Shown one piece after another: positions 35,082-58,304 of a stretch of 59,949 nt of DNA. Source of the DNA: a virus. The position numbers and the translations under genes were made by a program. The notes below the pieces were generated by a model, which saw only the letters and a list, made by a program, of their open reading frames with translations, made no database searches and was not told the origin of the DNA. The stretch spans positions 1-59,949 of the IMG/VR virus record IMGVR_UViG_3300038825_001248. One strand, 5' to 3'. The stretch's first letter is position 1. Each line of letters begins with the position of its first letter.

Positions 35082-35288
35082 ATTCGTGTCGACTTTTTTA
35101 ATTCGTGTCGACTTGGTGTCAACTTTTTTTAACCTTGACACTCTGTAACTAGTTGATTATTAATAACTTATATTAATTAGTGTCGAAGTGTCGACTTTAA
35201 CCCCAGTTTCTAGAAAAAAAAATTTAGTAGTAGTAGTAAAAAAAAATAAAAAAAAGAATAGGGAGTGAAACTTGACACAGTGACACTT
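35082..35288. repeat. Iteron-like GTGTCGACTT repeat field
   Basis: Repeats around the core GTGTC(G/A)A: ATTCGTGTCGACTT at 35082-35095 and again at 35101-35114; GTGTCAACTT 35116-35125; inverted TTGACAC 35135-35141; GTGTCGAA 35180-35187; GTGTCGACTT 35188-35197; inverted TTGACAC 35272-35278; and TGACACTT 35281-35288. AT-rich blocks lie between them (35146-35179 and 35214-35258, with (TAG)n and poly-A). Multiple direct and inverted sites beside AT-rich DNA are typical of replication origins or repressor-operator clusters. This fills the 368-base gap before groEL. Confidence 0.75.
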
Positions 35289-35309
35289 TTTATTTTGAAA
35301 GTAATTGTA

Positions 35310-35317
35310 TATATTTG
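35310..35317 (+). promoter_or_regulatory. groEL promoter -7 box TATATTTG
   Basis: TATATTTG matches TAnnTTTG and lies 26 bases before the groEL ATG. A TTTG occurs at 35294-35297, too close for a standard -33. The box sits directly after the last GTGTC-type repeats, so a protein bound there could control it. Confidence 0.6.
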
Positions 35318-35343: not shown

Positions 35344-36939
35344 ATGGAACAAGGATACACGCCCAGAGAGTTACACTTTGACTCTGAAGGCAGAAACAAA
35401 CTCATAAGCGGAATCGCTAAAATATCAAGAGCGGTTAAGTCAACTCTTGGCCCTAGAGGGCAGACAGTCTTAATAGAATCACGCACACATACACACGGAA
35501 TCACAGTAACTAAAGACGGAGTTACGGTTGCTAAGTCGATTGACTTGTTGGATCCGGTGGAGAACTTAGCGGTGAAGATGATGAAGGAAGCTGCAGATAG
35601 AACTGCGACCTCAGCTGGAGACGGAACGACGACTGCTATAGTATTGACGGAAGCGTTAGTTGAAGCGGGTGAAAAATACCTAGATAAGTCGGTAAATCCG
35701 ACGGTTGTGATACGTGAAATCAACAAACACACTTCACACGTAATTAAAAAGCTGGAGAAACAAGCGAAGAAATTATCCAAGAAAAGATTGTTGGACGTTG
35801 CTACTATATCGTCGAACAATGACAAAGAGATAGGGAAAATAATATACGATACTTATAACAAGGTAGGGCAAGACGGACTTGTCACGGTTGAAAACTCACA
35901 GAGTCATAATACATATAGTGAGGTGACAAAAGGGATCCGCGTTGAAAGAGGATATACATCGAATCTATTTGTGAACAATCAAAAGAAAGACGAGTGTGTG
36001 CTTGAGAACGTAAAGATACTTGTAGTAGATCAGGAGATTAATAACATACTTAGTATAGAGAAAATTTTGAAACCCATTATCAGTAACGGCGACAAACTGC
36101 TGATAATTGGAAATTGCCATAACAATGTCGTCAATACCCTAGCTGCAAATGTCGTTCGTAATGGCTTGAAGATATGTAATATCATGCCACCTCAGTTTGG
36201 TTACAAACAACATGAATTGATGAGCGACATAGCACTAGCGGTTGGTGCCAAGTATTTCAGTGAGAAGACTGGTGATGACTTGTCGTTGATTTCCACGGAG
36301 GATCTTGGGCATGCAGCAAAAGTAATTGTGGGTAGAGACAATACGATTATTATTAGAGATGATAAAGAAATTGAAGAGATACCACAAAGAGTTGAAGAAC
36401 TTTGGGAGCAACATAAGAATACGAAAATAAAATCTGAGAAAGATTTTATCCTGCAACGTATCGCTAGCCTCAGCGGAGGAATCGGAGTGATATATGTCGG
36501 CGGTAATTCAGATGTTGAGCAAAAAGAAAAATTTGACCGCGTCGATGACGCGGTATGTGCAGTGCGTTCTGCACTTGAAGAAGGAATTGTAGCGGGCGGA
36601 GGAGTGCCACTACTTAGAATATCTAAGGAACTTAATGAAGATGTTGAAAATGCAGAGGAAAAAGTTGCACTTCAAATATTAAAAGACGCATTAGCAGTTC
36701 CATGCAAACAGATATTGTTAAACGCAGGTGAAGATGAAGAAAGCATTACTAGATTTATTCTTGATGAGAGAAATGGTTATGATGTAAAGAATCAGAAATT
36801 TGGTGACATGTATAAGTTAGGGGTTATTGATCCACTAAAGGTAACAAAGAATGCCTTGATCAATGCAGTATCTGTTGCAACAACCATACTTAGTACGAAC
36901 GCTATCGTGACTTTAGCTAGAACATACGATAGTAAATAA
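35344..36939 (+). CDS. groEL: GroEL-type chaperonin (Hsp60)
   Basis: This 531-residue group I chaperonin spans the family's length (E. coli 548). Nucleotide-site residues are intact: TLGPRGQTVLIE (35-46), D58 in VTKDGVTVAKS, D93-GTTT, D401-D402 in VDDAVCAVRSALEEGIVAGG, G418-G420, and D496 in GVIDPLKVTKNAL. The Gly-Gly-Met C-terminal tail of bacterial GroEL is missing; it ends VTLARTYDSK. It is clearly divergent from typical bacterial GroEL in the apical domain, which fits a phage protein rather than recent host capture. The order is groEL, small ORF, groES, reversed from the usual bacterial operon. It probably folds capsid or other virion proteins. Confidence 0.95.
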   Translation: MEQGYTPRELHFDSEGRNKLISGIAKISRAVKSTLGPRGQTVLIESRTHTHGITVTKDGVTVAKSIDLLDPVENLAVKMMKEAADRTATSAGDGTTTAIVLTEALVEAGEKYLDKSVNPTVVIREINKHTSHVIKKLEKQAKKLSKKRLLDVATISSNNDKEIGKIIYDTYNKVGQDGLVTVENSQSHNTYSEVTKGIRVERGYTSNLFVNNQKKDECVLENVKILVVDQEINNILSIEKILKPIISNGDKLLIIGNCHNNVVNTLAANVVRNGLKICNIMPPQFGYKQHELMSDIALAVGAKYFSEKTGDDLSLISTEDLGHAAKVIVGRDNTIIIRDDKEIEEIPQRVEELWEQHKNTKIKSEKDFILQRIASLSGGIGVIYVGGNSDVEQKEKFDRVDDAVCAVRSALEEGIVAGGGVPLLRISKELNEDVENAEEKVALQILKDALAVPCKQILLNAGEDEESITRFILDERNGYDVKNQKFGDMYKLGVIDPLKVTKNALINAVSVATTILSTNAIVTLARTYDSK

Positions 36940-36957
36940 TAACTTAAAACCAAGAAT

Positions 36958-37089
36958 ATGCCAATTTATAACGAAATATTTGATTCTTTCAGAGCAAAGA
37001 CTCAAAAGCTAGAAGATGCAATAAAGCTTCTAGAAGAAAACGGATTTATTGTATACAACAAAGATAAGAAGTATGAATCCAGTAAATAA
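36958..37089 (+). CDS. 43-residue ORF between groEL and groES
   Basis: The short ORF encodes MPIYNEIFDSFRAKTQKLED then AIKLLEENGFIVYNKDKKYE. A helix followed by a beta strand is expected. It overlaps the groES start (37073) by 17 bases, implying translational coupling. No family is recognised; a small chaperonin-associated regulator is possible. Confidence 0.5.
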   Translation: MPIYNEIFDSFRAKTQKLEDAIKLLEENGFIVYNKDKKYESSK

Positions 37090-37330
37090 ATATATTGTAG
37101 TTAGAGAAATAGTAGAAGAACACAAGACAGATTCAGGGCTTCTATTGTCATCACAGGATGTTGATACCTATAGATACAAGAAAGGATTAGTGTTGAAAGT
37201 AGGAAACAATGTAGAAGTGATTAAAGAAAACGACTCTATATACTACGATAAAGCAGCAGGACATAAAATATTACTACAAGACGAACCGCTCACAATTATT
37301 CAGGAGCGTGATGTTGTAGTTGTTTTGTAG
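37073..37330 (+). CDS. groES: GroES-type co-chaperonin (Hsp10)
   Basis: This 85-residue protein (family about 97) starts NPVNKYIVVREIVEEHKTDS, which aligns with the bacterial start M-x-x-x-P-L-x-D-R-V-x-V. The mobile loop EEHKTDSGLLLSSQ (about 15-28) contains the hydrophobic GLLL that docks onto GroEL. GLVLKVGNNVEVIKENDSIY and the end IQERDVVVVL match the later strands. An upstream in-frame start at 37049 exists, but the 37073 start fits the family. It should cap the phage GroEL or the host one. Its end overlaps the convergent gene at 37296 by 35 bases. Confidence 0.88.
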   Translation: MNPVNKYIVVREIVEEHKTDSGLLLSSQDVDTYRYKKGLVLKVGNNVEVIKENDSIYYDKAAGHKILLQDEPLTIIQERDVVVVL

Positions 37331-37769
37331 CTTCATTTATTTTTTTTATTGCATTTCTATATACTTTATCAGTATATGATACATTTTTGTTGAACAAAGG
37401 GTTTCTTTCAGAAATCTCTTCTCCGTTCAGTTTTTTGTAGATAGTATCTATGATACGTCTCGTTTTATAAGTGAGCTCATATAGCGTCGCTTGTTTACCG
37501 CTGCGCTTTCTCCAAACATGAATCCAACCATCTCTCAACATTCTGTCAAACCTATTGACGTCCCAAGACATTAGCTCCTCATACTCCTTGAAGTCAGTTT
37601 TTTTAAATAGCTGCTCGCTATATAGAAATAATAACATTTCCAGATCTGGAGTAGTCAGTCCATACTTTGCTTTTACCCAATAACGAATGACTCTCCAGTA
37701 TTTCAAATAGTCGTTAGTAGGTTCTTTTCTGTCGTAGTTGTTTCTGATTGTTGATTTAATAGTCGTCAA
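37296..37769 (-). CDS. Winged-helix (MarR-like) regulator candidate
   Basis: This 157-residue protein has a winged-helix pattern: YWVKAKYGLTTPDLEMLLFL, helices around SWDVNRFDRMLRDGWIHVWR, and a wing RKRSGKQATLYELTYKTRRI. That is the order of a MarR-like DNA-binding domain. It ends with a helical Lys-rich tail. It is one of two minus-strand genes set among late plus-strand genes, overlaps the next gene by 14 bases, and could control late promoters or the repeat field at 35082. The target is unknown. Confidence 0.6.
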   Translation of the reverse strand: MTTIKSTIRNNYDRKEPTNDYLKYWRVIRYWVKAKYGLTTPDLEMLLFLYSEQLFKKTDFKEYEELMSWDVNRFDRMLRDGWIHVWRKRSGKQATLYELTYKTRRIIDTIYKKLNGEEISERNPLFNKNVSYTDKVYRNAIKKINEATKQLQHHAPE

Positions 37770-39154: not shown

Positions 39155-41416
39155 ATGGCAATAAAATTCTCCCAATTTACAGTACGAACTAGTTCTTCTG
39201 ACCTTAGTCACATTGTGGGATACAATGGCGTGGACAATATTCAGATTACACCCACCAACTTTTTAAACTCAGCGCTTACAGGAACAGCCGGACAAGTATT
39301 GTTCTATGACACTACGGGTGTAGCAGGTGATAACGACTTATATTGGAATAATACTAATAAACGATTAGGTGTTGGAACTACTAGTCCAGCATTTAAAACA
39401 ACAATATACTCTAGTAGTACTACTGATTCTTTTCCTCTTGTCATTGGTCAAGGAAACGCAGCAAATAACTTTGTTGGAATTGGTTTATCTGGTTTTATAG
39501 CTTCAAATGGCGCTGTTAAAGCAGCCATGGTTTTAAATAGAGATAGTACTTATGGGGTAGGTGATATTCATTTTTTAAATAATACAACACAAGACAATAC
39601 AAACGCAACTTTAAGTGATTCAAGATTAGTTATAAAAAAATCTGGTAACGTAGGTATTGGAACTACTAGTCCTAGTGAAAAATTACAAGTAGAGGGCAAT
39701 ATTAAGGTAGGTGATTCACAACAATTTGTTGCAGGAGCTAGCAATGATTTACAAATATATCACGATGGTAGTAATTCTTTTATAAGAAACATTAATACTA
39801 ATTTAATTATAAAAAATGAATATAATGATGGAGATATAATATTTGAATCAGATGATGGCTCGGGTAATATTGCTGAATATTTTAGAGTTGATGGTAGTGA
39901 TGAAAATGTTTTATTTAGTAAAATGTTAAAATTATCTGATAATGTAGAACTTAGAATTGGTGGTGGTAATGATATTAAAATTTACCACGATACTAGTAAT
40001 TCATATATTAAAACTGGAACTGAAGCAGGTAATTTAATAATCGAGCAAAACACAGATGACGCTGATATTATCTTCAAGTCAGATGACGGCTCTGGTGGTG
40101 TAGCTACATATTTTAAATTAGATGGTAGCACTGTTACAACAGTTGTTAGTAAAGAATTTAAGTTTGAAGATAATGTAAAAGCTAATTTTGGAACTGGTAT
40201 TGATTTACAATTATACCACACTGGAACTAAATCTTTAATAGTAAATGTAAACGGTGATTTAGATATACAAAACCAAGCTAACGATGGGGATATATTATTT
40301 AAATCAGATGATGGTTCTGGTGGAGTTACTACATATATGACAATTGATGGTGGCGAAGAACAAGTAAGGTTTTTTAAACCAACTGAACACGGTGATGGAG
40401 TTCTTGCTAGATTCGGAAATTCAGGAGATTTACGAATATATCACGATGGTAGCAATTCACATATACAAGCTAATGGAACTGGTGATTTATTTATTCAACA
40501 GTTTAGAGATGATGGTGATATAGTATTTCAGTCAGATGATGGTAGTGGTGGTGTTGAAACATATTTTTATTTAGATGGTGGTGCAAGTAAAAATGTATCA
40601 AATAAAAATTTTAGAATAATTGATAGTAAAATATTTAGTTTAGGTTCTTCTGATGATTTTCAATTATATCATAATACTGCTGATAGTTGGATAGAAAATT
40701 ACACAGGAAATATAAATATAAGAAATAGACAAGATGATGGCGATATTATTTTTTATTCAGATGATGGTTCAGGTGGACACGCACAATATTTTAGAGTTGA
40801 TGGTGGTGCAGTTGAAACTCAATTCGTAAAATCAACACTACATTATGATAATGTAAAGGCACAATTTGGAGATAGTAGAGATTTACAAATCTATCACGAT
40901 GGCACAGATTCATTTATACAAAATTTTGTTGGAAATTTAGAAATACAACAAGGTACAAACGATGGAGATATTATATTTAAATGTGACAATGGTTCAGGTG
41001 GAACAGATACATATTTTAAATTATGGGGTGCAATATCATCTCTAGCAGTTTACAAAGATATGTTATTTGTTAATGATGGAAATGGTGGTAAACTGAAGTT
41101 TGGTGCTTCGCAAGATTTACAAATATATCATGATGGTAGTAATTCTTTTATAGCTGATACAGGTACAGGTAAACTAAAAGTTTTAGCAAGTCAATTTGAT
41201 GTAATAAACGCTGCAAATACTGAATTTATGGCGGAGTTTATAGAAAACGCAGAAGTAAGGCTTTATCACAACAACTCTAAAAAGTTTGAAACAACAAGTA
41301 CAGGTATTAAAATTTCAGGTGTATCAGAATATGCAGACAATGCGGCGGCTATTGCAGGAGGATTAACAACAGGAGATGTTTATAGAACAGGAGATTTATT
41401 AAAAATAGTACACTAA
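39155..41416 (+). CDS. Repetitive tail fibre/spike protein A
   Basis: This 753-residue protein has an N-terminal module (about 1-90: IKFSQFTVRTSSSDLSHIVG, GTAGQVLFYDTTG, GDNDLYWNNTNKRLGVGTTS) shared with the 41420 protein. The shaft carries about seven copies of a roughly 65-residue repeat. Each has a LQIYHDGSNSFI-like strand followed by DGDIIFxSDDGSGG and a YFxxDGG turn. The C-terminal part (SEYADNAAAIAGGLTTGDVY) resembles a fibre tail domain, but no S74 chaperone domain follows. A trimeric beta-rich fibre for receptor binding is likely. Confidence 0.78.
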   Translation: MAIKFSQFTVRTSSSDLSHIVGYNGVDNIQITPTNFLNSALTGTAGQVLFYDTTGVAGDNDLYWNNTNKRLGVGTTSPAFKTTIYSSSTTDSFPLVIGQGNAANNFVGIGLSGFIASNGAVKAAMVLNRDSTYGVGDIHFLNNTTQDNTNATLSDSRLVIKKSGNVGIGTTSPSEKLQVEGNIKVGDSQQFVAGASNDLQIYHDGSNSFIRNINTNLIIKNEYNDGDIIFESDDGSGNIAEYFRVDGSDENVLFSKMLKLSDNVELRIGGGNDIKIYHDTSNSYIKTGTEAGNLIIEQNTDDADIIFKSDDGSGGVATYFKLDGSTVTTVVSKEFKFEDNVKANFGTGIDLQLYHTGTKSLIVNVNGDLDIQNQANDGDILFKSDDGSGGVTTYMTIDGGEEQVRFFKPTEHGDGVLARFGNSGDLRIYHDGSNSHIQANGTGDLFIQQFRDDGDIVFQSDDGSGGVETYFYLDGGASKNVSNKNFRIIDSKIFSLGSSDDFQLYHNTADSWIENYTGNINIRNRQDDGDIIFYSDDGSGGHAQYFRVDGGAVETQFVKSTLHYDNVKAQFGDSRDLQIYHDGTDSFIQNFVGNLEIQQGTNDGDIIFKCDNGSGGTDTYFKLWGAISSLAVYKDMLFVNDGNGGKLKFGASQDLQIYHDGSNSFIADTGTGKLKVLASQFDVINAANTEFMAEFIENAEVRLYHNNSKKFETTSTGIKISGVSEYADNAAAIAGGLTTGDVYRTGDLLKIVH

Positions 41417-41419
41417 AAA

Positions 41420-44251
41420 ATGGCAGTAAAATTTTCACAATTCGTAGTTGAAACAGATAAGGCAAACGTTAACTATTTAGTAGGTTGGGACGGGGTAGAA
41501 AACGTACAGATAACTCCTGCTGATTTATTATCCGGCACCCCTTCAGGATCTGGGGCCGCAGGTCAAGTAGCATTCTTCGATTCTGCTTCTACATTAGCTG
41601 GAGACAATGATTTATACTGGGATAACACAAATAAACGATTAGGCATTAGTACTTCTAGCCCTCAAGAAAAGCTAGATATTTCAAGTGGCAGCATAAGGTT
41701 AGACGATAATCAAAAAATTACCTGGTCTACCAATGACTCAAATATCGGTAGAGTTAGAATAACAGGTAACGAATCAAATGATTTTATAACATTTGTTACC
41801 GACAATTCTGAAAGAATGCGTATTGCTGGAAACAACGTAGGTATTGGAACTACAAGCCCATCTGCCAAATTAGATGTAGACGGATCTCTTATTGCAACTG
41901 GTATATCACAACTTGGATCAGGCGGTTCTAATGTATATTTAACATCTTCTAGCGCAGGTAACGTAGGTATTGGGACTAGTAGTCCTAATAATAAACTAGT
42001 CGTAAACGGAACAGTACATCTAGGATCAAATGGTAGTGATGTTACAATAGGTGCTAGTAATAGCTCTGTTATATTTATGTTAAGATCTGGCTATAATTAT
42101 ATTCAAGCAAGTGACGCTTCTGGTGCATTAATGTTTAGAACAGGAGGAAATAATAATAGAATGATTATAGACTCTTCAGGTAACGTAGGTATTGGAACTG
42201 CTAGTCCTACAACTAAACTACATATTGACGAATCAGGAACAACTTCACCTGCTTTATTTATTGATACTGCAAGATATGGAGCTTCTATAATTGGTGACGG
42301 AACAAGTAATTCTCAATATTTATTAAATTTGCAAAGTAATGGAGGTTCTACTGAAGTTATGAGAGTTCAGTCATCTGGTAACGTAGGTATTGGAACTACT
42401 AGTCCTAGTGAAAAACTAGAAGTTATTGGTATTATAAAAGCAGTACATACAGATTCTACTTACGCAAAACTTAGAGGTAACGGAGTGTTTTTTAACAGAA
42501 GTGACGTTTACATAAGCCCAGAAGCTGATAATTCTCAAACAGTTAATATAGGTCATAATGGTTCTAGGTGGGGAAATGTAGAAATAAACGCTGCTGTAGT
42601 TAAATTTGAAAATGGTTCAAATGAATTTATGCGTATTAACTCTTCAGGCAACGTTGGTATTGGAACTACTAGTCCTGCAGCCAAACTAGATGTAGTTGGT
42701 AGAATAGGATTAAATGATGGTAATAGTAATGTTCTTGTAGGTAGTAACGCAGGTGATGCGTTAACAACAGGTAGTTTTAATGTAGCTCTTGGATCTTATG
42801 CTTTAACTAAGGAAGACACAGGTAATAAAAGTATAGCTATTGGTTATGCTGCTTTAGAAAATCAAAATAATAGCAATGATAATTATAACGTTGCAATAGG
42901 TCATAATGCCGGTAAACAAATTACAACAGGTACTTTAAACACTTTAATAGGTGGTTTGGCTGGAGACGCTTTAACAACAGGTTTTTCAAACATAGCAATT
43001 GGTTATCAAGCCTCAGGCGCTGCTACTATTGCTAATAATAATGTTGCTATAGGTATAGATGCTTTACATGACAACGTTGCTGGAGATAGAAACGTAGCTA
43101 TAGGATCAGAAGCATTAGAAAAAATGACTCAAGCTTCAACAGTAGATACTTATAATGTAGCTATAGGGTACAACGCTGGTAAACAAGTTACAACAGGTGT
43201 TCAAAACACTATAATAGGTGGTCTGGCTGGTGATGCATTAACTACAGGTTCTGGTAACACTGCATTAGGATATGGTACTTTAAGTGTAGAACAAGCTGGA
43301 GGAAGAAATGTAGCAATTGGTTGGAAAGCATTAGTAAATCAAAATACAGGTGTAGATTCTTATAATGTAGCAGTAGGATATGAAGCTGGTGAACTTATTA
43401 CAACAGGTATACAAAACACTCTAATAGGTGGTTTAGCTGGTGACTCATTAAATACTGGTAACAATAACATAGCTATTGGTTACTTAGCCTTAACTACAGA
43501 AACAAGTGGCGGTAATAATGTTGCTATAGGGGTAACCGCTTTACAACAATCAAATGGTGGTACTTATAATGTTGCTATTGGTAGAGACGCAGGGCAACAA
43601 ATTACAACAGGATCAACAAACACATTAATAGGTGCTGAAGCAGGTGACGCGATTACAACCGGAGCTAATAATGTTGTAATAGGTTATGATGCAGCAGATG
43701 TTTTATTAGATGGTGTTCAAAATACTTTAGTAGGAGATCAAGTAGCTGGAGCATTAACAAGTGGTGATGAAAATACATATATTGGAAGAAGGGCTGCTAG
43801 TTCTGCAACAACTGGAAATCAAAATGTTGCAATAGGTGCTGGGGTGTCATTATCTTCTGCTACAGTTAGTAACGAAGTAAATATATCTAACAGTAGTGTA
43901 ATAGCTAGATTCCAAGGAGCGGCTAGTTCATGGAGTTTTGTATCTGATGCTAGAGATAAAAAAGATATTGAAGATTTAGAATTAGGTGTTGAATTTATAA
44001 ATAAATTAAAACCTAGAAAATTCAAATGGGATTTAAGAGATTCGGACGTAGATAAAGATAAAGAAGCGTCAGGATTTGTGGCGCAAGAAATAAAAGAAGT
44101 TTTAGATAAAACAGGAGTTGATTACACAGGTATTGTAGACACTAATAATCCTGATCAGTACACAGTTGCACAAGCAAATATAATACCAATACTTGTAAAA
44201 GCAGTACAAGAATTAAGTGCTGAAGTGAAAGAATTAAAGTCAAAAATATAA
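41420..44251 (+). CDS. Tail fibre B with C-terminal S74 self-cleaving chaperone
   Basis: This 943-residue protein shares its anchor module (VKFSQFVVETDKANVNYLVG; AGDNDLYWDNTNKRLGISTS) with fibre A. Residues about 85-440 hold five GNVGIGTTSPxxKLDV repeats. Residues about 440-820 hold YadA-like NVAIGxxAL / NTLIGGLAGDALTTG repeats. The end (about 842-943) is a Peptidase_S74 intramolecular chaperone with the cleavage motif SDARDKKDIEDLELG, then FINKLKPRKFKWDL and SGFVAQEIKEVLDK. In this family the chaperone assembles a trimer and cuts itself off. Strong fibre or receptor-binding candidate. Confidence 0.88.
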   Translation: MAVKFSQFVVETDKANVNYLVGWDGVENVQITPADLLSGTPSGSGAAGQVAFFDSASTLAGDNDLYWDNTNKRLGISTSSPQEKLDISSGSIRLDDNQKITWSTNDSNIGRVRITGNESNDFITFVTDNSERMRIAGNNVGIGTTSPSAKLDVDGSLIATGISQLGSGGSNVYLTSSSAGNVGIGTSSPNNKLVVNGTVHLGSNGSDVTIGASNSSVIFMLRSGYNYIQASDASGALMFRTGGNNNRMIIDSSGNVGIGTASPTTKLHIDESGTTSPALFIDTARYGASIIGDGTSNSQYLLNLQSNGGSTEVMRVQSSGNVGIGTTSPSEKLEVIGIIKAVHTDSTYAKLRGNGVFFNRSDVYISPEADNSQTVNIGHNGSRWGNVEINAAVVKFENGSNEFMRINSSGNVGIGTTSPAAKLDVVGRIGLNDGNSNVLVGSNAGDALTTGSFNVALGSYALTKEDTGNKSIAIGYAALENQNNSNDNYNVAIGHNAGKQITTGTLNTLIGGLAGDALTTGFSNIAIGYQASGAATIANNNVAIGIDALHDNVAGDRNVAIGSEALEKMTQASTVDTYNVAIGYNAGKQVTTGVQNTIIGGLAGDALTTGSGNTALGYGTLSVEQAGGRNVAIGWKALVNQNTGVDSYNVAVGYEAGELITTGIQNTLIGGLAGDSLNTGNNNIAIGYLALTTETSGGNNVAIGVTALQQSNGGTYNVAIGRDAGQQITTGSTNTLIGAEAGDAITTGANNVVIGYDAADVLLDGVQNTLVGDQVAGALTSGDENTYIGRRAASSATTGNQNVAIGAGVSLSSATVSNEVNISNSSVIARFQGAASSWSFVSDARDKKDIEDLELGVEFINKLKPRKFKWDLRDSDVDKDKEASGFVAQEIKEVLDKTGVDYTGIVDTNNPDQYTVAQANIIPILVKAVQELSAEVKELKSKI

Positions 44252-44253
44252 AG

Positions 44254-44261
44254 TATCTTTG
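44254..44261 (+). promoter_or_regulatory. -7 box TATCTTTG before the lysis block
   Basis: TATCTTTG, an exact TAnnTTTG match, starts directly after the fibre B stop and precedes a 22-residue ORF at 44267 and the membrane gene at 44347. It could start lysis-block transcription. Confidence 0.62.
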
Positions 44262-44266
44262 TATCT

Positions 44267-44335
44267 ATGAAACACACAACAACAACTTGGTACCACGATT
44301 TAGAAGTGGAGTATAATTACGTAGAAAACAAATAA
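44267..44335 (+). CDS. 22-residue leader-type ORF
   Basis: The ORF encodes MKHTTTTWYHDLEVEYNYVE then NK. It begins only 5 bases after the -7 box, so the transcript would be leaderless or nearly so if this promoter is used; it may therefore be untranslated leader. Thr-run and Trp make a leader-peptide role conceivable. Weakly supported. Confidence 0.3.
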   Translation: MKHTTTTWYHDLEVEYNYVENK

Positions 44336-44346
44336 AATATAGATCC

Positions 44347-44760
44347 ATGAAGTTCTATAAAGATAAATCAACTGAAGAAATTTTAGCTCAGATTGAGATT
44401 GATAAAATCAATGCAAAAAGTACAGCTAAAGAAATTGCATCTAAACACCTAGGAAAGCACGCAATTAATTACATAACCATACTGGTTGTAATAGGAGTGG
44501 TTAGCTCTCAGTTTTTAGAAGGCGGTGCTTTAACAGCTGTAATTGGTTTAGTATCTACTGCTGCAATGGCAATGATAGGTATATTACAACACATTGTCGG
44601 TGCTAAAGAAAAAGAAGAAAAGCCAGAATTAGAAATAATTAAAAGCTTGATCAAAGAACTTTCCGACAAAGAAGATGATCCTATGCAGGTAGACGTAACA
44701 GACACAGATGTTACGGTCACTAAAGGTGAAAGCAAAGTAACGGCTAGTAAAAAGAAATAA
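44347..44760 (+). CDS. Two-TM membrane protein, holin candidate
   Basis: This 137-residue protein has two transmembrane segments at about 38-58 (NYITILVVIGVVSSQFLEGG) and 60-82 (LTAVIGLVSTAAMAMIGILQ) flanked by charged termini. The C-terminal tail is acidic then Lys-rich. Two hydrophobic hairpin helices and position near an M15 endolysin suggest a holin or an auxiliary lysis protein. The 47349 gene is an alternative holin. Confidence 0.55.
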   Translation: MKFYKDKSTEEILAQIEIDKINAKSTAKEIASKHLGKHAINYITILVVIGVVSSQFLEGGALTAVIGLVSTAAMAMIGILQHIVGAKEKEEKPELEIIKSLIKELSDKEDDPMQVDVTDTDVTVTKGESKVTASKKK

Positions 44761-44761
44761 A

Positions 44762-45067
44762 ATGGCACAGAAAATAAGTGAAGACACAAACGTAACATTA
44801 GACTTAAAAACTATAGGTCTTATTGTTGGCGGCGTTGTTTCACTTACAAGTATGTATTTTGTATTAAAATCAGACATAGCTCTTGCTATGGAAAAGCCAG
44901 AACCTGAAGTCTCTAAAATTGAATGGTCTTATAAAGACGAGCTGGTTAGATCTGAAATATCTAACACAAACGAAAAAGTTTTAGGGCTAGAAAAATCAGT
45001 AGAAGAAATTAAAGAACAACTCAACAAAATTGATGAAAGATTATATGAAATCAGTAAACAGAGATGA
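44762..45067 (+). CDS. Membrane-anchored coiled-coil protein (spanin/lysis accessory candidate)
   Basis: This 101-residue protein has an N-terminal transmembrane segment (LKTIGLIVGGVVSLTSMYFV) and a C-terminal coiled coil (ISNTNEKVLGLEKSVEEIKE, then QLNKIDERLYEISKQR). That layout occurs in inner-membrane spanins and in holin-associated proteins. It overlaps the next gene by four bases (ATGA). Confidence 0.58.
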   Translation: MAQKISEDTNVTLDLKTIGLIVGGVVSLTSMYFVLKSDIALAMEKPEPEVSKIEWSYKDELVRSEISNTNEKVLGLEKSVEEIKEQLNKIDERLYEISKQR

Positions 45068-45387
45068 GATGTGCAATAATTGCTTTTTTCCTGACATGTG
45101 TCAGTTTTGCTCAAACTGATATTGAAATAATTCAGTTTAGCGCTTCTTTTGTTAAAGACAAAGAGATTTCATTGAAAGGTTTTAGATATGATACTAAAAC
45201 CATATACATGACAAACTCACAAGATATATTCAAAAAACATAACGTTAAATATATTCCCACCATTATATTGTTTTATAATGAAGAAGAATATTTTAGAGTT
45301 GAATCAGGCATTTCACTAACATTGCCTGAAGACTCGATAGAACAATTAGAACAAAAAATTGAACAAATAATAGAAAGTAAATTTTAA
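45064..45387 (+). CDS. Secreted thioredoxin-like protein lacking the CxxC site
   Basis: This 107-residue protein has a signal peptide (MRCAIIAFFLTCVSFA-Q) and a thioredoxin-like order: strand IEIIQFSASFVKDKE, helix and strand TIYMTNSQDIFKKHNVKYIP, the cis-Pro strand YIPTIILFYNEEE, then a C-terminal helix. The place of CxxC is FSASFVK, so it cannot be redox active in the usual way. It is likely periplasmic. It precedes a beta-barrel gene. It may be a structural helper. Confidence 0.62.
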   Translation: MRCAIIAFFLTCVSFAQTDIEIIQFSASFVKDKEISLKGFRYDTKTIYMTNSQDIFKKHNVKYIPTIILFYNEEEYFRVESGISLTLPEDSIEQLEQKIEQIIESKF

Positions 45388-45389
45388 AA

Positions 45390-46664
45390 ATGAATAGAAA
45401 AGAAAAAACCGAAAAGTTTGCTACCAACGCATTAATATATATAATGATATTTATTTTATTAATGTTTTTTAGTTTGGGAGCACAAGCTCAAGTTATTGAT
45501 GATTCAAAAAAACTTGAAAATAAAATTGTAAAAAAATATAAAGTAAAAAATTTTTTTGAGGATGTGTACAAAGATATACTCAAATACTCCACTATATATG
45601 TAGCTGGTGATATTGATAACCCAAAAGAAAATCCAAAAGATTACTTCGTTAGAACAAATCCAAACGGTAATTTGTATTCAGCGCCTGTGGTGGTTGATGG
45701 AACAGACTACTATGATTTCGATTACAGATATGGCGTTGGTATACGAAAGCTAGCTAGGTTTGATTATGAAATAAAAGGAAAGCACTACTACGATGGCACT
45801 GAAAATAACATTGGTTTGTCAGCACCAAACTCTCCTGTAAATGGATTAGAGTACACTATTCATTATGAAAAAGAAAGATCAAGAGATGAAATATTTACAA
45901 ATCACAGGTACTTTGTAAAGCATAGCGGAGAGTTTCATGTGGTAAAACTTGAAAGCAGAAAACAAGGAAAAGTAGATTTTAATTACAAGTCTGCCGAAGT
46001 GAGAGCAAAACTACCTATAGGTAAAAAATTTAGTATTTCCGCTGGCGCAATCTACAGAACTCATGTGCGTCCTTATGGATACAATCCCGTAGAAATATGG
46101 TTAAATGAAACAAATTTAGAAGGCCAGATTATAAACCCTTGGTACACGTTGGGGTTTCAATATGGTTATGATGATGTTTATTACACGCAAGAAGATCAGT
46201 TTGGCAATGAAGTGTCTGACTGGTACTGGATAGATCCTGAAGGAGAAATCGTAGCTCATACAGATTTAGAGTTTCGTGACACGGTTTTTGCTGAACTAAT
46301 GAACAGATTTAACCATGAAGTTTGGGATGGCTTGGATACGTTTGGCGTGGTTAGCCCAATCATAGGTTTTGATATGTATCACTACAAACGAAATTTCTGG
46401 CTTCACGCCTACGGTTCTTATTTATTACCTTATCACAAATACGTTCAAGGAGATGTTGATTTTAGTTATCTAAACAGAAACAATTGGGGGTTAGGAGGAT
46501 TAAGACAAGATTCTGAATTAGAGCAGTGGGAGGATTGGCAGGCAGGCCTGTCATTTGGATGGAAACTTTCTAAAAGTCTGGGAGTGTTTATTGAAGGAGA
46601 ATACACAAAGTTTTGGGATTCCGAAATTTATCAGTCATCAGTTGGTTTAAACATTAGATTGTAA
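45390..46664 (+). CDS. Outer-membrane beta-barrel-like protein
   Basis: This 424-residue protein starts with a signal sequence (IYIMIFILLMFFSLGAQA-Q, about 16-34). Aromatic-rich amphipathic strands follow (DFDYRYGVGIRKLARFDYEI; KKFSISAGAIYRTHVRPYGY; QAGLSFGWKLSKSLGVFIEG). It ends SSVGLNIRL; an alternating C-terminal strand is the type of signal read by the barrel-assembly machinery. It lies between the thioredoxin-like and peptidase genes. It could block adsorption of other phages, disturb the envelope at lysis, or act as an outer-membrane spanin substitute. None is proven. Confidence 0.65.
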   Translation: MNRKEKTEKFATNALIYIMIFILLMFFSLGAQAQVIDDSKKLENKIVKKYKVKNFFEDVYKDILKYSTIYVAGDIDNPKENPKDYFVRTNPNGNLYSAPVVVDGTDYYDFDYRYGVGIRKLARFDYEIKGKHYYDGTENNIGLSAPNSPVNGLEYTIHYEKERSRDEIFTNHRYFVKHSGEFHVVKLESRKQGKVDFNYKSAEVRAKLPIGKKFSISAGAIYRTHVRPYGYNPVEIWLNETNLEGQIINPWYTLGFQYGYDDVYYTQEDQFGNEVSDWYWIDPEGEIVAHTDLEFRDTVFAELMNRFNHEVWDGLDTFGVVSPIIGFDMYHYKRNFWLHAYGSYLLPYHKYVQGDVDFSYLNRNNWGLGGLRQDSELEQWEDWQAGLSFGWKLSKSLGVFIEGEYTKFWDSEIYQSSVGLNIRL

Positions 46665-46894
46665 TGGACAAGATACCTAACGATAAACTTTTACATTTCT
46701 TTTGGGGAGGTGTTTCGGCTTTTCCTTTAATATACTTGTGGTCAATTAATGGATTTATTTTTTCCGTAACTTTGTATGCAGCTAAAGAAATTATTTATGA
46801 TTGGTGGATGGGCAAAGGAAATCCAGAGTTTATGGATTTTATTTTTTCTAGTGTGCCAGCGGTATTTTATATAATATTAAAATTAAATTTATGA
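46664..46894 (+). CDS. Small membrane protein
   Basis: This 76-residue protein (MDKIPNDKLLHFFWGGVSAF) has two to three hydrophobic segments. It begins with the 'DKLLHFFxG' motif of small membrane proteins found in phage lysis regions and bacterial loci, and contains AAKEIIYDWWMGKGNPEFMD. It starts inside the barrel-gene stop and overlaps the endolysin gene by four bases. An accessory lysis role is inferred. Confidence 0.6.
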   Translation: MDKIPNDKLLHFFWGGVSAFPLIYLWSINGFIFSVTLYAAKEIIYDWWMGKGNPEFMDFIFSSVPAVFYIILKLNL

Positions 46895-47352
46895 ATAGAA
46901 TCAGTGAACACATAACATACGCAGAGGCCATACACTCCAATACAGCTAAAAGAAAAAAAATTGATAATACACCAAATCCCACTCAAATAGCCGCCATGGC
47001 TACTACAGCAGAAATGGTGTTTGAGCCTTTAAGATCTTGGGTTGGAGGCCCAATAAAAGTAAATTCTTTTTTTAGGTCGCCATCTTTGAATGAAGCTATT
47101 GGCGGGGTAAGTTCCAGCCAGCATTGCAAAGGTCAAGCAATTGATTTGGATGATGTGTATGGGTATAAGTCTAATGCAGAAATGTTTATGTACATACGAG
47201 AAAATTTAGATTTTGACCAATTGATATGGGAGTTTGGAACAGATATGAATCCTAACTGGATCCATGTTTCATATGTATCAAAAGATGAAAACAGAAATAG
47301 ATGTTTGAAGGCGTATAAGGAGGATGGTAAAACAAAGTATAAAGTAATATGA
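46891..47352 (+). CDS. M15-family peptidase (endolysin)
   Basis: This 153-residue protein is a zinc D,D-/L,D-carboxypeptidase-type enzyme. KVNSFFRSPSLNEAIGG leads to the ligands H78 (SSQHCKGQAIDLD, with D85), E114 in WEFG as base, and H125 (NWIHVSY). This is the Peptidase_M15 layout. It would cut the peptide cross-links of peptidoglycan at lysis. It has no signal peptide, so a holin is needed. It overlaps both neighbours by four bases, forming the core of the lysis cassette. Confidence 0.9.
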   Translation: MNRISEHITYAEAIHSNTAKRKKIDNTPNPTQIAAMATTAEMVFEPLRSWVGGPIKVNSFFRSPSLNEAIGGVSSSQHCKGQAIDLDDVYGYKSNAEMFMYIRENLDFDQLIWEFGTDMNPNWIHVSYVSKDENRNRCLKAYKEDGKTKYKVI

Positions 47353-47807
47353 GTTCAAAAAAACCTTTTAAAGACACAACAGTTGGGCAGCTTTTATTTG
47401 GCGCTGCATCCGTAATAAATCCTACGCTAGGAAATATATTGCAGGGTGTTACAAGTCCACAAGAAGCAATTGCTGAAATAACTAAATCAGATGCTCCGGC
47501 TGACGATAAAATTAAACTACAGCAATTAATATATGAACAACAGAACAAAGAGCTAGAGGCAATCACTTCAAGATGGAAAGCAGACTCGATGTCTGATTCG
47601 TGGATGTCGAAAAATGTACGACCACTAGTGTTAATATGGTGTATAGTGGTTTTTTCGTTTGCTGGGATATTAGACAGTGTTGAAACTATACCGTTCACAA
47701 TACATGATAATTGGAATTCAACATTTGAGAATGTGATGATGGCGGTCGTCTTAGCCTATTTCGGAGGAAGGTCGAGCGAAAAAGCAATAAGTATATTTAA
47801 AAAGTAA
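47349..47807 (+). CDS. 3TM-type holin candidate (GTA-holin-like)
   Basis: This 152-residue protein has an N-terminal amphipathic region, then SRWKADSMSDSWMSKNVRPL followed by transmembrane segments (LVLIWCIVVFSFAGILDSVE and VMMAVVLAYFGGRSSEKAIS). The 'RWxADxxSDSWxSKNVRPL' signature plus the GGRSxEK end matches the 3TM holin group known from gene-transfer-agent release (HOL_3TM). It overlaps the endolysin by four bases, the classical holin place. Confidence 0.85.
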   Translation: MSSKKPFKDTTVGQLLFGAASVINPTLGNILQGVTSPQEAIAEITKSDAPADDKIKLQQLIYEQQNKELEAITSRWKADSMSDSWMSKNVRPLVLIWCIVVFSFAGILDSVETIPFTIHDNWNSTFENVMMAVVLAYFGGRSSEKAISIFKK

Positions 47808-47941
47808 TGGCAAGAAAAATAATAAATCCAATTGAGTATAAGAAAGCTAGAAAAAAAAGACCTGGCATACACGCTAAGACTAAAACTAGTAAATTAAAAA
47901 GTAGTAAATTGTATAAGAAACTATATACAGGACAAGGATAA
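47807..47941 (+). CDS. 44-residue Lys/Arg-rich protein
   Basis: MARKIINPIEYKKARKKRPG, then IHAKTKTSKLKSSKLYKKLY. About a third of its residues are Lys or Arg. It overlaps the holin stop (TAATG) and the next start (TAATGG). Likely nucleic-acid binding or virion basic peptide. First of a cluster of small basic proteins up to 49437. Confidence 0.58.
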   Translation: MARKIINPIEYKKARKKRPGIHAKTKTSKLKSSKLYKKLYTGQG

Positions 47942-48102
47942 TGGCAAAAAAAGGAAGAACAAAAGGAAATAAAATATGTCCAGCTGGAATTGCTTGGGCA
48001 AAAAGAACCTTCGATAGATACCCTTCAGCGTATGCAAATATGGCTGCAAGCAAATATTGTAAAGATCCAAATTACGCTAAAGGAACTAAAAAGAAAAAAT
48101 AA
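47941..48102 (+). CDS. 53-residue Lys/Cys-rich protein
   Basis: MAKKGRTKGNKICPAGIAWA, then KRTFDRYPSAYANMAASKYC, ending TKKKK. The segment between the two Cys is predicted helical. I recognise the CPAGIAWAKRTFDxYPSAYAxMAASKYCKDP motif as recurrent in marine-phage genomes, of unknown role. It resembles the 38276 protein in style. Confidence 0.65.
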   Translation: MAKKGRTKGNKICPAGIAWAKRTFDRYPSAYANMAASKYCKDPNYAKGTKKKK

Positions 48103-48106
48103 AGAT

Positions 48107-48364
48107 ATGGCTTGTGAAGGATTAACAGGAAATGCGAAAAAAAAATGTATGAAAGCTTATGTTAAAGAAGCTAAAAACATTTACCCTAGATTTAATGTAG
48201 AAAATGAAACTCTTGTTAAGAGTAGAAGTAATAATATTTCAGGAGCGATGCAAGATTCTCCTAAAGATAATGTAAAAGAACAAAAGGTTACAAAGAAAGG
48301 AAATCAATTTATAGTGAAAACTATTATTAAGAAACCAAGGAAAGTAAAATTAAAAGGAAGATAA
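48107..48364 (+). CDS. 85-residue basic protein
   Basis: Starts MACEGLTGNAKKKCMKAYVK after four bases from its neighbour; an upstream in-frame start at 47990 would overlap the previous gene widely and is rejected. Two Cys near the N-terminus and a basic C-terminus (FIVKTIIKKPRKVKLKGR). No family is recognised. Confidence 0.58.
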   Translation: MACEGLTGNAKKKCMKAYVKEAKNIYPRFNVENETLVKSRSNNISGAMQDSPKDNVKEQKVTKKGNQFIVKTIIKKPRKVKLKGR

Positions 48365-48386
48365 TAACAATTAAAAATTAGAAATC

Positions 48387-48566
48387 ATGCAAATGAGAAA
48401 ACCGATGCTTAATGCAATTCAAAAAGTAAAAATGGCCATGGGTAAAAAGAAGCCTAAGCTTTCAATGAGAAAACCTAAATTAAATCCAGGCTTTGACGCT
48501 CTTCCATCATCAGTTCAAAAGAAAATGATGAAAAAAGCTAAAATGGCTATGAGGAAAATGAAGTAA
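48387..48566 (+). CDS. 59-residue Met/Lys-rich protein
   Basis: MQMRKPMLNAIQKVKMAMGK, then KKPKLSMRKPKLNPGFDALP. It has twelve Met and many Lys, an unusual amphipathic composition, and it ends AKMAMRKMK. It has an A/T-rich leader (CAATTAAAAATTAGAAATC) and ends in the next gene's start. Possible DNA-condensing or membrane-active peptide. Function unknown. Confidence 0.58.
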   Translation: MQMRKPMLNAIQKVKMAMGKKKPKLSMRKPKLNPGFDALPSSVQKKMMKKAKMAMRKMK

Positions 48567-48931
48567 TGGCTTTTAACTTAAAAAATATTTATGAGGTTTT
48601 CGGTCACAACAAACAATACTCCAACGGAGACAGAATTGTTGTGGAGAAAAAAATGTCTAAAAATGTTTTAGGTCAAATAAATCCTAATGGCGTTATTGAA
48701 ATTAATAAAGACGCAACGCCAGCAAATAAACGTAGAGCTGTAAAGCACGAGCAAGTACACCTTGACCAAATTAGGTTAGGGTTGTTGCATTTCGATCATA
48801 ATAATTATTATTATAGAGAAAGCATAACCTCACCAATACAGCGTATACCGAGCAGTAAAATTAATACCTATGACAGAACTCTGCCATGGGAAATACAAGC
48901 GCATAATGGGGGAATTAAAAAAATGGGTTAA
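48566..48931 (+). CDS. Small zincin-type metallopeptidase
   Basis: This 121-residue protein carries H61-E-Q-V-H65 (AVKHEQVHLDQIRLGLLHFD) with E109 in RTLPWEIQAHN as probable third ligand, the order of minimal gluzincins/DUF4157-like peptidases. It has no signal peptide. It lies within the basic-protein cluster, so it might trim such proteins in the virion or act on host proteins. The catalytic pattern is clear; the target is not known. Confidence 0.72.
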   Translation: MAFNLKNIYEVFGHNKQYSNGDRIVVEKKMSKNVLGQINPNGVIEINKDATPANKRRAVKHEQVHLDQIRLGLLHFDHNNYYYRESITSPIQRIPSSKINTYDRTLPWEIQAHNGGIKKMG

Positions 48932-49145: not shown

Positions 49146-49146
49146 T

Positions 49147-49437: not shown

Positions 49438-49445
49438 TATATTTG
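49438..49445 (+). promoter_or_regulatory. -7 box TATATTTG before the second fibre cluster
   Basis: TATATTTG matches TAnnTTTG and starts directly after the stop at 49437, 32 bases before the fibre ATG at 49477. Confidence 0.55.
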
Positions 49446-49463
49446 TAAAATATTTAAAAACAT

Positions 49464-51456: not shown

Positions 51457-51467
51457 ATAAATAAACA

Positions 51468-52639: not shown

Positions 52640-52664
52640 AAAAAAATAATTAAATACAAATAAA

Positions 52665-55017: not shown

Positions 55018-55242
55018 ATGGACATTAGAAAAATCTCCATAGGCGCTGACTATAAGTCAAGCTCTATGCATTACTTAGTAGGCCAGCCTATATTAAACGG
55101 AAGCTACACAATACATTTAATCCAACAAGACTTATCGAATAATTCAATAAAAATTTGGATTGAAAAAAATAATGAGGTATTATTATGGAAGGAATTTAAT
55201 TCCAACATGCCAATAGCCATTGAATATAATATAAACTTTTAA
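55018..55242 (+). CDS. Small protein before the packaging genes
   Basis: This 74-residue beta-type protein (MDIRKISIGADYKSSSMHYL; SNNSIKIWIEKNNEVLLWKE) shares its stop with the next start. The pattern 'DIRKISIGxDYKxxxMHYxVGQxVLxGxYxIHxIxxxxxxxxIxIWIExxxEVxxWKxFNxxMPxxIEYNINF' is of a kind recurring beside TerS in flavobacterial and other marine phages. Function unknown. Confidence 0.62.
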   Translation: MDIRKISIGADYKSSSMHYLVGQPILNGSYTIHLIQQDLSNNSIKIWIEKNNEVLLWKEFNSNMPIAIEYNINF

Positions 55243-55805
55243 TGAAGTCTCCACACTATTTTATTGTAAAACCTGTTAAGGGTAGAAGATATGATAATAT
55301 AAAAAACATAGGAGGGATTGATTTTTATACAAGCGTTTCTCAAGAAGATCATAGTGCATCCAATAGATTTGCAGAGGTCGTAAGTTGTCCTTTAAATTAT
55401 ACTGGTGAAATACAAGCCGGAGATATATTGCTGGTACACCACAATGTTTTTAAAATATATTACGACATGAAAGGTCGAGAAAAAAGTGGTAGAAGTTTTT
55501 TTAAAGACGACTTGTTTTTTATTGATTATGATCAATTTTATATGTATTATCATAACGGCAAATGGCAAACACATTCTAAGTATTGCTTTATAAAACCGGT
55601 TCCTGTAAGAAAATCGATTATTATGAAGCCGGTTGAAGAGGAGCCTTTAGTGGGTATTATAAAATACACAAACACAAAACTAACTGAACTAGGTGTAAAA
55701 GAAAACGATGAAGTGGTTTTTGAACCTGAATGCGAATATCCATTTTACATTAACGGAGAAAAACTTTACAGAATGTTTTGGAACAACATAACAATGGTAT
55801 TATGA
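55242..55805 (+). CDS. Conserved-looking protein before terminase
   Basis: This 187-residue protein has no signal or membrane segment. It has SCPLNYTGEIQAGDILLVHH near 65-84 and GRSFFKDDLFFIDYDQFYMY near 97-116. The 'GDxLLVHHNVFKxYxDMKGxxKSGxSFFKxDLFFI' pattern recalls co-chaperonin-like beta barrels (GroES fold) in some phages, which is tentative. It sits next to the packaging genes, and its ATGA overlap with the TerS candidate suggests coupled translation. Confidence 0.6.
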   Translation: MKSPHYFIVKPVKGRRYDNIKNIGGIDFYTSVSQEDHSASNRFAEVVSCPLNYTGEIQAGDILLVHHNVFKIYYDMKGREKSGRSFFKDDLFFIDYDQFYMYYHNGKWQTHSKYCFIKPVPVRKSIIMKPVEEEPLVGIIKYTNTKLTELGVKENDEVVFEPECEYPFYINGEKLYRMFWNNITMVL

Positions 55806-56080
55806 AAAGTTCAAAAGATTTAAAGATAGAAATAATTAGCGCAGGCAGAGAGGCTGTAGCACAATTAATAAAGGTTGCTAAAGAAGATATTATTAAATAT
55901 GATAAGGATGATGAGTTAGCGGCTGACAGGTTAAAGAATGCTGCGGCTACAAAAAAACTAGCTATATTCGATGCGTTTGAAATACTTACAAGAATAGAAT
56001 TAGAAAAAGATTTACTAAACGGAGTTGAAAAAGTAGAAGAAAAATCAAGACAAGGATTTGCAGAAAGACGATCAAAATAA
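55802..56080 (+). CDS. Terminase small subunit candidate
   Basis: This 92-residue helical protein (SSKDLKIEIISAGREAVAQL; ADRLKNAAATKKLAIFDAFE) directly precedes TerL and overlaps it by 23 bases. The start is set at the ATGA overlap with the upstream stop; an in-frame ATG at 55778 lies inside the upstream gene and is not used. Size, helical content and place fit a DNA-recognising small terminase. Sequence identity of TerS proteins is low, so this is by context. Confidence 0.65.
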   Translation: MKSSKDLKIEIISAGREAVAQLIKVAKEDIIKYDKDDELAADRLKNAAATKKLAIFDAFEILTRIELEKDLLNGVEKVEEKSRQGFAERRSK

Positions 56081-58304
56081 ATTATATACAGTTGTAAAAA
56101 ACCACGTATCCAAACAATCTATGTTGAAAATGAATCAACATAAGTCTTGGCAGTACGGGTATAATCCAAATCATGATTTGGTTGTTATAAGCAAAGACGG
56201 AACTGTTGGTGAAATATATGACATTAATGGGTTATTAATAGGGTTGCCTAAAGCCCCTAAGATAATACATAAAAACTCTAAAACAACAACAGATCAATAT
56301 TGGGTTGCCGCGGAATATCCAAAAGCTTTATCTAGAATTAATTCTATTTTTCAATGGCATGAAATGACTACTCAGTTTAAAAATGAGTGGGTTGATTACA
56401 TTGAAACAGAATTCGATAGAAGGGAAGAAGGTTATTGGTTTTATAACAACGGAACACCCATCTATATAACCGGTACTCATTACATGTATTTGCAGTGGAC
56501 TAAAATAGATATTGGTAAACCCGAGTTTAGAGAAGCTAACAGAATATTTTATATTTTTTGGGAAGCGTGTAAGGCTGATAAAAGAAGTTTTGGCATGTGT
56601 TATTTAAAAATAAGACGTTCAGGTTTTTCGTTTATGGGTTCTTGCGAAGCCGTTAACACTGCTACAATTAGCAAGGACGCAAGAATAGGTATACTTTCTA
56701 AAACAGGATCCGATGCCAAAAAAATGTTTACTGATAAAGTTGTGCCAATATCAAACAACTATCCTTTCTTTTTCAAGCCCATACAAGATGGTATGGATAG
56801 GCCAAAAACAGAGTTGGCATATAGAGTACCTGCCTCCAAGATTACAAAAAAAAATATGTTTGAAACTGAAGAGGAGGAGCTAGAGGGATTAGATACAACA
56901 ATTGACTGGAAGAACACGGCCGACAATAGTTATGATGGTGAAAAATTAAAGTTGCTAATACATGATGAATCAGGTAAATGGTTAAAACCTGACAACATTA
57001 TTAACAACTGGAATGTAACGAAAACATGTTTGAGGCTGGGTAGTAAGATTATTGGTAAATGTATGATGGGATCAACATCTAATGCTTTAGACAAAGGTGG
57101 TGAAAATTTTAAGAAATTATTTTATGATTCTGATGTAAAAAATAGAAATCAAAATGGTCAAACAAAAAGCGGGTTATATAATTTGTTTGTTCCTATGGAA
57201 TGGAACTTTGAAGGATATATTGATAAATATGGAATGCCTGTTTTTAAAACACCAATCAAAGCTGTCGAGGGATCTGACGGAGAATTTATATATCAAGGCG
57301 CTATTGATTATTGGGAAAACGAAGTAGATTCGTTAAAGAAAGATGCTGATGTTTTAAATGAATTTTATAGACAATTTCCAAGAACAGATTCTCATGCCTT
57401 TAGAGATGAAAGTAAACAGTCATTGTTTAACCTAACTAAAATTTATCAGCAGATAGATTATAATGATTCTTTAATTAAAGAGCATTATTTAACTAGAGGT
57501 AGATTTAGCTGGAAAGACGGAATCAAAGATTCAAAAGTAATATGGTCACCTGACACAAGAGGTAGATTTTTAATTTCCTGGATACCAGAAAAAAACTTAC
57601 AAAATTGTAGGTTAAATCAAAATGGAAAGTATGCACCAGGCAATGAACATTTAGGTAGTTTTGGGTGTGACTCATATGATATATCTGGAACAGTAGGAGG
57701 CGGAGGATCAAATGGTGCATTACACGGATTAACTAAATTTAATATGGACAATGCCCCTAGCAATGAATTTTTTTTAGAATACGTAGCAAGACCGCAAACT
57801 GCAGAATTATTTTTTGAAGATGTATTAATGGCTTGTGTTTTTTACGGAATGCCTATTTTAGTAGAAAATAATAAACCTAGATTATTGTATCATTTTAAAA
57901 ATAGAGGGTATAGAAAATATTGTATGAATCGACCAGATAAAGTGTACAACAAACTTTCTAAGTCTGAAAAAGAAATAGGAGGTATACCTAACTCTTCAGA
58001 GGAAGTAAAGCAGGCGCATGCAAGCGCTATTGAAAGTTATATAGAAAAGTATGTGGGTATGGATATGGATGGGACATTTAGAGATAAATTAGACATGGGG
58101 ACTATGTATTTTAATAGAACATTAGAAGACTGGGCTAGGTTCAATATTAACAATAGAACTAAGTTTGACGCAACTATAAGTTCAGGTTTGGCTATTATGG
58201 CTAATCAAAAACACTTATACACACCTCAAAAAAAAGAGTCAAAAATAAAGATTAACTTTGCAAGATATAATAACAAGGGAATATATAGCGAAATACGTAC
58301 TTAA
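56058..58304 (+). CDS. Large terminase (DNA-packaging ATPase/nuclease)
   Basis: This 748-residue protein has the TerL order: adenine-region WVDYIETEFDRREEGYWFYN upstream, a degenerate Walker A at about 184-192 (KIRRSGFSF, no GK[ST]), Walker B at about 298-304 (LLIHDES, with D303-E304), coupling motif GSTSN (338-342), and a nuclease region beginning FGCDSYDISGTVGGGGSN (D538). It translocates DNA into the procapsid and cuts it. Its stop overlaps the portal start by one base. The Walker A form with R-R-x-G-F-S appears to be a trait of some Bacteroidota-phage terminases. Confidence 0.9.
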   Translation: MQKDDQNKLYTVVKNHVSKQSMLKMNQHKSWQYGYNPNHDLVVISKDGTVGEIYDINGLLIGLPKAPKIIHKNSKTTTDQYWVAAEYPKALSRINSIFQWHEMTTQFKNEWVDYIETEFDRREEGYWFYNNGTPIYITGTHYMYLQWTKIDIGKPEFREANRIFYIFWEACKADKRSFGMCYLKIRRSGFSFMGSCEAVNTATISKDARIGILSKTGSDAKKMFTDKVVPISNNYPFFFKPIQDGMDRPKTELAYRVPASKITKKNMFETEEEELEGLDTTIDWKNTADNSYDGEKLKLLIHDESGKWLKPDNIINNWNVTKTCLRLGSKIIGKCMMGSTSNALDKGGENFKKLFYDSDVKNRNQNGQTKSGLYNLFVPMEWNFEGYIDKYGMPVFKTPIKAVEGSDGEFIYQGAIDYWENEVDSLKKDADVLNEFYRQFPRTDSHAFRDESKQSLFNLTKIYQQIDYNDSLIKEHYLTRGRFSWKDGIKDSKVIWSPDTRGRFLISWIPEKNLQNCRLNQNGKYAPGNEHLGSFGCDSYDISGTVGGGGSNGALHGLTKFNMDNAPSNEFFLEYVARPQTAELFFEDVLMACVFYGMPILVENNKPRLLYHFKNRGYRKYCMNRPDKVYNKLSKSEKEIGGIPNSSEEVKQAHASAIESYIEKYVGMDMDGTFRDKLDMGTMYFNRTLEDWARFNINNRTKFDATISSGLAIMANQKHLYTPQKKESKIKINFARYNNKGIYSEIRT

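Follow-up and report, generated by a model that had tools for sequence, protein, structure and literature searches.

Phage GroELs are reportedly common among the virioplankton of natural waters and divergent from those of bacteria, with a gene order said to be linked to GroEL phylogeny, and the genomes predicted for these virioplankton chaperonins reportedly exceed 70 kb, against about 60 kb for the lineage described here (Marine et al. 2017, ISME J). Viral chaperonins have been described as prevalent in aquatic systems (PMC8390657). Phage T4 encodes gp31 (PDB 1g31), a GroES-fold cap for virion assembly that, unlike the tandem protein described below, is a single domain and works with the host GroEL. 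Phages EL and AR9 encode chaperonins (PDB 6tmt) that are phage-encoded GroELs like the one studied here, although far more diverged (24% identity for AR9); the EL chaperonin showed no interaction with E. coli GroES (PMC7185714) and, compared with this cap-independent single-ring group, the phage described here encodes its own GroES.

The stretch of DNA that we analysed, hereafter the window, is a virus record of 59,949 bases. It carries a groEL-groES cassette and, in its packaging and head region, the gene for a further GroES-like protein (55242-55805), of predicted tandem architecture and absent from the first-pass annotation. These genes probably make up a group I chaperonin system that belongs to the phage itself, in a podophage-like lineage of Bacteroidota phages, and that has two co-chaperonins and is suited to virion proteins. 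The groEL-groES pair is of a kind known in aquatic phages and is ordinary rather than rare; it is the tandem co-chaperonin that is the interesting part. The cassette consists of the following genes:

35344..36939, plus strand: groEL, ATG start, a 531-aa group I chaperonin with no GGM tail
36958..37089, plus strand: ORF43, 43 aa, one occupant of a variable groEL/groES junction slot
37073..37330, plus strand: groES, ATG at 37073, an 85-aa single-domain co-chaperonin with the mobile loop KTDSGLLLS

The GroEL protein has the full-length Cpn60 domain by which a group I chaperonin is recognized, matching Pfam Cpn60_TCP1 at 228.2 bits (cut-off 34.3) over positions 1-487 of the 490 in the profile and PHROG 5725 'chaperonin groEL' at 449 bits. 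In the alignment, its ATP-site residues T34, G36, D58, D93-GTTT, D402 and D496 correspond to T30, G32, D52, D87-GTTT, D398 and D495 of E. coli, and D58, D93-GTTT, D402 and D496 are invariant in all ten clade members compared. The intact 531-residue GroEL of the first-pass annotation, with its ATP-site residues, is thus present in full, save that the aspartate numbered there as D401 is actually D402. A GGM-rich C-terminal tail, which is typical of group I chaperonins and not a requirement, was found in none of 79 clade members as against 73 of 80 bacterial GroELs, so that the absence already remarked on in the window extends to the whole clade. The apical domain is diverged, as had also been proposed: identity to the Psychroflexus GroEL is 35% in the apical and 46% in the equatorial domain, while two bacterial GroELs compared likewise share 67% and 64%. 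Within the substrate groove, L234 is replaced by E, Y203 by L or M and V263 by A in ten of ten clade members, and V264 is likewise changed across the clade, whereas the character of Y199 (Y/W), F204, L237 and L259 (V/I) is kept. Inter-ring contact positions are not conserved. The omega of groEL is 0.035-0.055, indicating strong purifying selection. In one related contig (G037:C1:56354-57931), groEL contains a single in-frame TAG, for which a sequencing error, a pseudogene or recoding are all possible.

The 85-residue GroES with a mobile loop is likewise as first described. It has a Cpn10 domain (Pfam Cpn10, 44.6 bits, cut-off 21.1), and its loop carries the hydrophobic tripeptide; the SGLLL motif is kept over 34 sequences, in which G22 and L25 are invariant and S21 is nearly so. 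Strong purifying selection acts on this gene too (omega = 0.04-0.05). The E. coli-type roof insertion is absent from the window GroES, which is not a phage-specific feature because the 86-aa Helicobacter GroES lacks the insertion as well.

Between the two genes, ORF43 starts 18 nt past groEL and runs 17 nt into groES, in agreement with the 43-residue coupled ORF first noted there. Its homologues occur in nine loci, several of them with the identical groES overlap, and omega between homologues is 0.1-0.3. A random ORF is ruled out because homologues recur at the same place with the same overlap and this range of omega; ORF43 is a real, purifying-selected but fast-evolving passenger gene. It belongs to no known family, as neither Pfam nor PHROG gave a match above noise and no homologue was found in named phages. 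We saw no evidence for ORF43 as a chaperonin subunit. The junction is empty in 28 of 79 loci and otherwise holds members of 23 ORF clusters (at least 29 aa), a few of which are probably spurious, such as a 29-aa cluster inside an oxygenase gene. Occupants (loci L007-L086) include a 2OG-Fe(II) oxygenase, a NUMOD1 protein, a DUF1599 protein and a crAss001_48-related protein. The junction is a variable cargo slot with about 20 occupants, among them over a dozen unrelated families of small genes, and ORF43, singled out at first as an oddity, is just one of them.

GroEL is present in 226 of 50,697 phage-collection records, many of them from Vibrio and Flavobacterium phages, and at least 308 IMG/VR contigs carry a relative of the window GroEL, numbers that contradict the initial view that a phage GroEL and GroES together are rare. 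Gene order was read in the best 80 of these at least 308 contigs and in the relative ctfjg026, both genes being readable in 79 loci (78 contigs and ctfjg026). All 79 have the order groEL-groES, whereas 69 of the 70 bacterial loci carrying both genes have groES-groEL, which marks the reversed order as a trait of the lineage. The same order is also found in Elemovirus and in Maribacter phage Panino but not in Callevirus. The reversal pointed out in the first-pass annotation is thus real but no oddity. A 52-row GroEL tree unites the window and its relatives in one clade (support 100), with all bacteria across a branch (95); Elemovirus adjoins the window clade (99), although its long branch calls for caution. 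Together with the strong purifying selection on both genes and the low identity to cellular GroELs given below, this upholds the original proposal, and the window GroEL is, on the evidence of these comparisons, an independent, long-resident phage chaperonin.

The second co-chaperonin gene lies next to the terminase gene:

55242..55805, plus strand: tandem (two-domain) GroES-fold protein, 187 aa, a predicted second co-chaperonin recognized by PHROG 13932, models and fold searches
56058..58304, plus strand: large subunit of the terminase, the gene for which closely follows the tandem gene in a conserved neighbourhood

The tandem protein matches PHROG 13932 'co-chaperonin GroES' at 68.6 bits and is annotated as a co-chaperonin in some public records; with the protein or its alignment as query, there was no Pfam match and no useful sequence match in the PDB. 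With HHalign, the length of its C half can be aligned with Cpn10 (97%, E 8e-11), and this half has a mobile-loop-like position; the equivalent half in Pachyviridae and Callevirus exceeds the Pfam Cpn10 cut-off. In the N half of the window protein, Cpn10 went undetected by HHalign and HMMER sequence profiles, while the N halves of elemo, phi38:1 and phi13:2 give Cpn10 scores slightly above those of shuffles. The model of the whole protein (pLDDT 75, pTM 0.71) matches single Cpn10 chains as well as tandem chloroplast-type 7ekq chains, its best VIA match being the tandem chain 7ekq_R (Z 8.9, 148 residues, 4.1 A); T4 gp31 is matched at Z 6.0 over 78 residues and 3.2 A. When the N half is modelled alone (pLDDT 79), the top 12 Foldseek matches are all Cpn10/GroES chains and the VIA list for residues 1-103 is headed by GroES/Cpn10 (Z up to 6.7, 84 aligned, 3.5 A rmsd). 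It should be noted that the N half rests on moderate-confidence models (pLDDT 75-79), with Foldseek E never below 0.002 and Z below 8; because Z stays below 8 and Foldseek E above 0.001, a GroES fold for this half is likely, short of proof. The protein is thus predicted from its models to consist of two GroES-fold domains, head to tail. In the literature searched, the coverage of which was incomplete, we found no description of the tandem nature of a phage co-chaperonin, and we know of no tandem co-chaperonin among the virioplankton chaperonins of Marine et al. 2017.

Only 85 records of named phages carry the tandem gene, and in all those inspected it lies upstream of the terminase (and portal) gene. 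It was present in 20 of 20 tested records of at least 50 kb, taken from a set of 30 found via GroEL. Searching from the tandem gene gave 17 records, 15 with GroEL and 14 with GroES; the exceptions are G031 and G040, which are cut at the groEL region, and G045, a 40-kb record. G031, which has the tandem gene and no GroEL, is ruled out as a counterexample by its contig ends, which flank the groEL region. Another record, G026 (73,787 bases, the record of locus L077), has two terminases and two tandem co-chaperonins and is likely two joined genomes. A single-domain GroES accompanies the tandem protein in every named or cultured clade checked: both types occur in the window clade, ctfjg026, Elemovirus, Callevirus and Panino, and also in the Pachyviridae phi13:2, phi18:3, phi19:3 and phi46:3, which have no GroEL. 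Gundel_1 lacks GroEL and both GroES types, and immuto, Vibrio K469 and phi14:2, which bear GroEL and fall outside these clades, lack the tandem protein. From this pattern of presence and absence, the pair of caps seems, in this group, to predate the phage GroEL or to be more basic than it.

Upstream and downstream of the cassette are candidate expression signals:

35083..35289, no strand assigned: putative operator-like repeats upstream of the groEL promoter
35310..35317, plus strand: TATATTTG, a -7 box of the Bacteroidota type ahead of the groEL-groES cassette, 34 nt before the ATG
37296..37769, minus strand: convergent gene of 157 aa with a weak match to a transcriptional-regulator PHROG, a candidate regulator

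Of 43 loci, the window included, 38 have a TAnnTTTG box in the 110 nt that precede groEL, mostly 24-38 nt from the ATG, against a background of about one per kb per strand. Copies of GTGTC(G/A)ACTT start at 35086, 35105, 35116 and 35188, with TTGACACAGTGACAC near 35272, while in sister contigs GTGACAACTT occupies the same positions as these repeats, a swap that would fit a joint change of operator and repressor. The ctfjg026 gene syntenic with the convergent gene is annotated 'repressor protein'. All terminase-based named relatives with a known host infect Flavobacteriia, and therefore the host of the window phage is probably a member of the Bacteroidota. The portal gene is split over the window ends (58304-59949 and 1-891) with a 33-codon overlap at the protein level, which makes it probable that the record represents a circular genome of about 60 kb in almost complete form; no exact sequence of 20-399 bases common to both ends was found, and no tRNAs were found in the window. 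Tail fibre/spike modules recur in several genes within 39155-54990 (PHROGs 4636, 23837 and 6002 at 41420, 49477 and 51468), which suggests duplicated receptor-binding parts. A protein as long as 2405 aa, for which no family gave a meaningful match, is encoded at 15318-22535 of this 60-kb phage.

We propose that GroEL, as an ATPase ring, and the single-domain GroES would be made from one cassette under its own Bacteroidota-type promoter, while the packaging and head module would supply the second co-chaperonin, a head-to-tail fusion of two GroES domains. The GroEL ring, with a predicted folding activity, would bind unfolded phage proteins, presumably those of the virion, with ATP driving capping, and both caps may act on the same ring. 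Phage-specific caps and an altered binding groove would together fit GroEL to large virion proteins, much as T4 gp31 suits the host GroEL to the capsid protein gp23.

How the two caps might be combined is a more tentative matter. Three tandem proteins and one single-domain GroES could form a mixed, seven-domain lid, a possibility that we regard as less likely than not. The two GroES types co-occur, even without GroEL in Pachyviridae, the closest structural match is 7ekq_R, a tandem chain, and in Chlamydomonas CPN20/23 and CPN10 form hetero-oligomers of seven GroES-like domains (PMC5780408). However, the two phage genes lie in separate modules some 18 kb from each other, and Cpn20 can act alone as a tetramer (PMC5859369). 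We offer as a speculation, less likely than not, that a family of Bacteroidota phages independently evolved a 3 x 2 + 1 lid, convergent with chloroplast Cpn10/Cpn20, for virion-protein folding on their own GroEL or, in Pachyviridae, on that of the host.

The main rival to a co-chaperonin role is that the tandem protein is no longer a chaperone and serves as a head or packaging component with a GroES fold, the chaperonin then being groEL-groES only. Its gene directly precedes those for the terminase and portal in each named relative inspected; the N half of the protein has drifted past sequence recognition, and Pachyviridae retain the protein without GroEL. Yet the C half retains its Cpn10 profile match and mobile-loop-like position, and the protein is always accompanied by a single-domain GroES, and we consider a structural role doubtful. 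That groEL-groES act mainly on host proteins, for stress buffering or the protection of host enzymes during infection, rather than on virion proteins, seems to us unlikely: the cassette does have its own predicted promoter, apart from the head genes, but both the apical domain and the residues of the substrate groove differ from those of bacterial GroEL, and a conserved head-module co-chaperonin is encoded alongside. Recent host-gene capture or a chimeric assembly has next to no probability and is ruled out by identity, tree and synteny, because GroEL belongs to a phage clade of its own, outside the bacterial GroELs, with at most 42% identity to cellular GroELs among the matches listed (the best being from Flavobacteriaceae), and the same locus recurs in dozens of independent contigs.

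The tandem co-chaperonin would offer a tractable model in which to study why even-numbered domains arise in a lid that faces a seven-fold ring, and by what route phages adapt folding machines to capsid proteins; cultured relatives (Elemovirus and the Cellulophaga phages) make direct tests feasible.

The closest known system is that of ctfjg026 (Caudoviricetes sp., MW202828.1, 'Podoviridae sp.', from spring water), a circular genome of 60,850 bases with the same groEL-groES order, in which GroEL is 58%, GroES 43.5%, the terminase 71% and the tandem protein 58.6% identical to those of the window; unlike the window it lacks ORF43, and its tandem protein is annotated merely as 'hypothetical protein'. 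The Elemovirus phages of Flavobacterium (vB_FspP_elemo) resemble the window in gene order, in a size of about 60 kb, in their sister position in the GroEL tree and in having the tandem gene, annotated 'chaperonin cpn10', upstream of the terminase gene, but their GroEL is only 37% identical, the ATP loop reads GDSTTC rather than GDGTTT, and ORF43 is missing. The Callevirus phages of Cellulophaga (Calle, phi38:1 and phi40:1) also combine GroEL, a single GroES and a tandem GroES, although with groES before groEL, a different small ORF between them and a GroEL that is likewise 37% identical. Outside the viruses, chloroplast Cpn20/CPN23 (PDB 7ekq) likewise have two head-to-tail GroES domains and occur beside a single-domain Cpn10 (PMC5859369, PMC5780408); they have no detectable sequence relation to the phage tandem protein, the gene for which lies in a head module, and the two are likely convergent fusions. 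The phage tandem co-chaperonin, conserved next to the terminase gene of several cultured phages of Bacteroidota, would represent a viral equivalent of chloroplast Cpn20.
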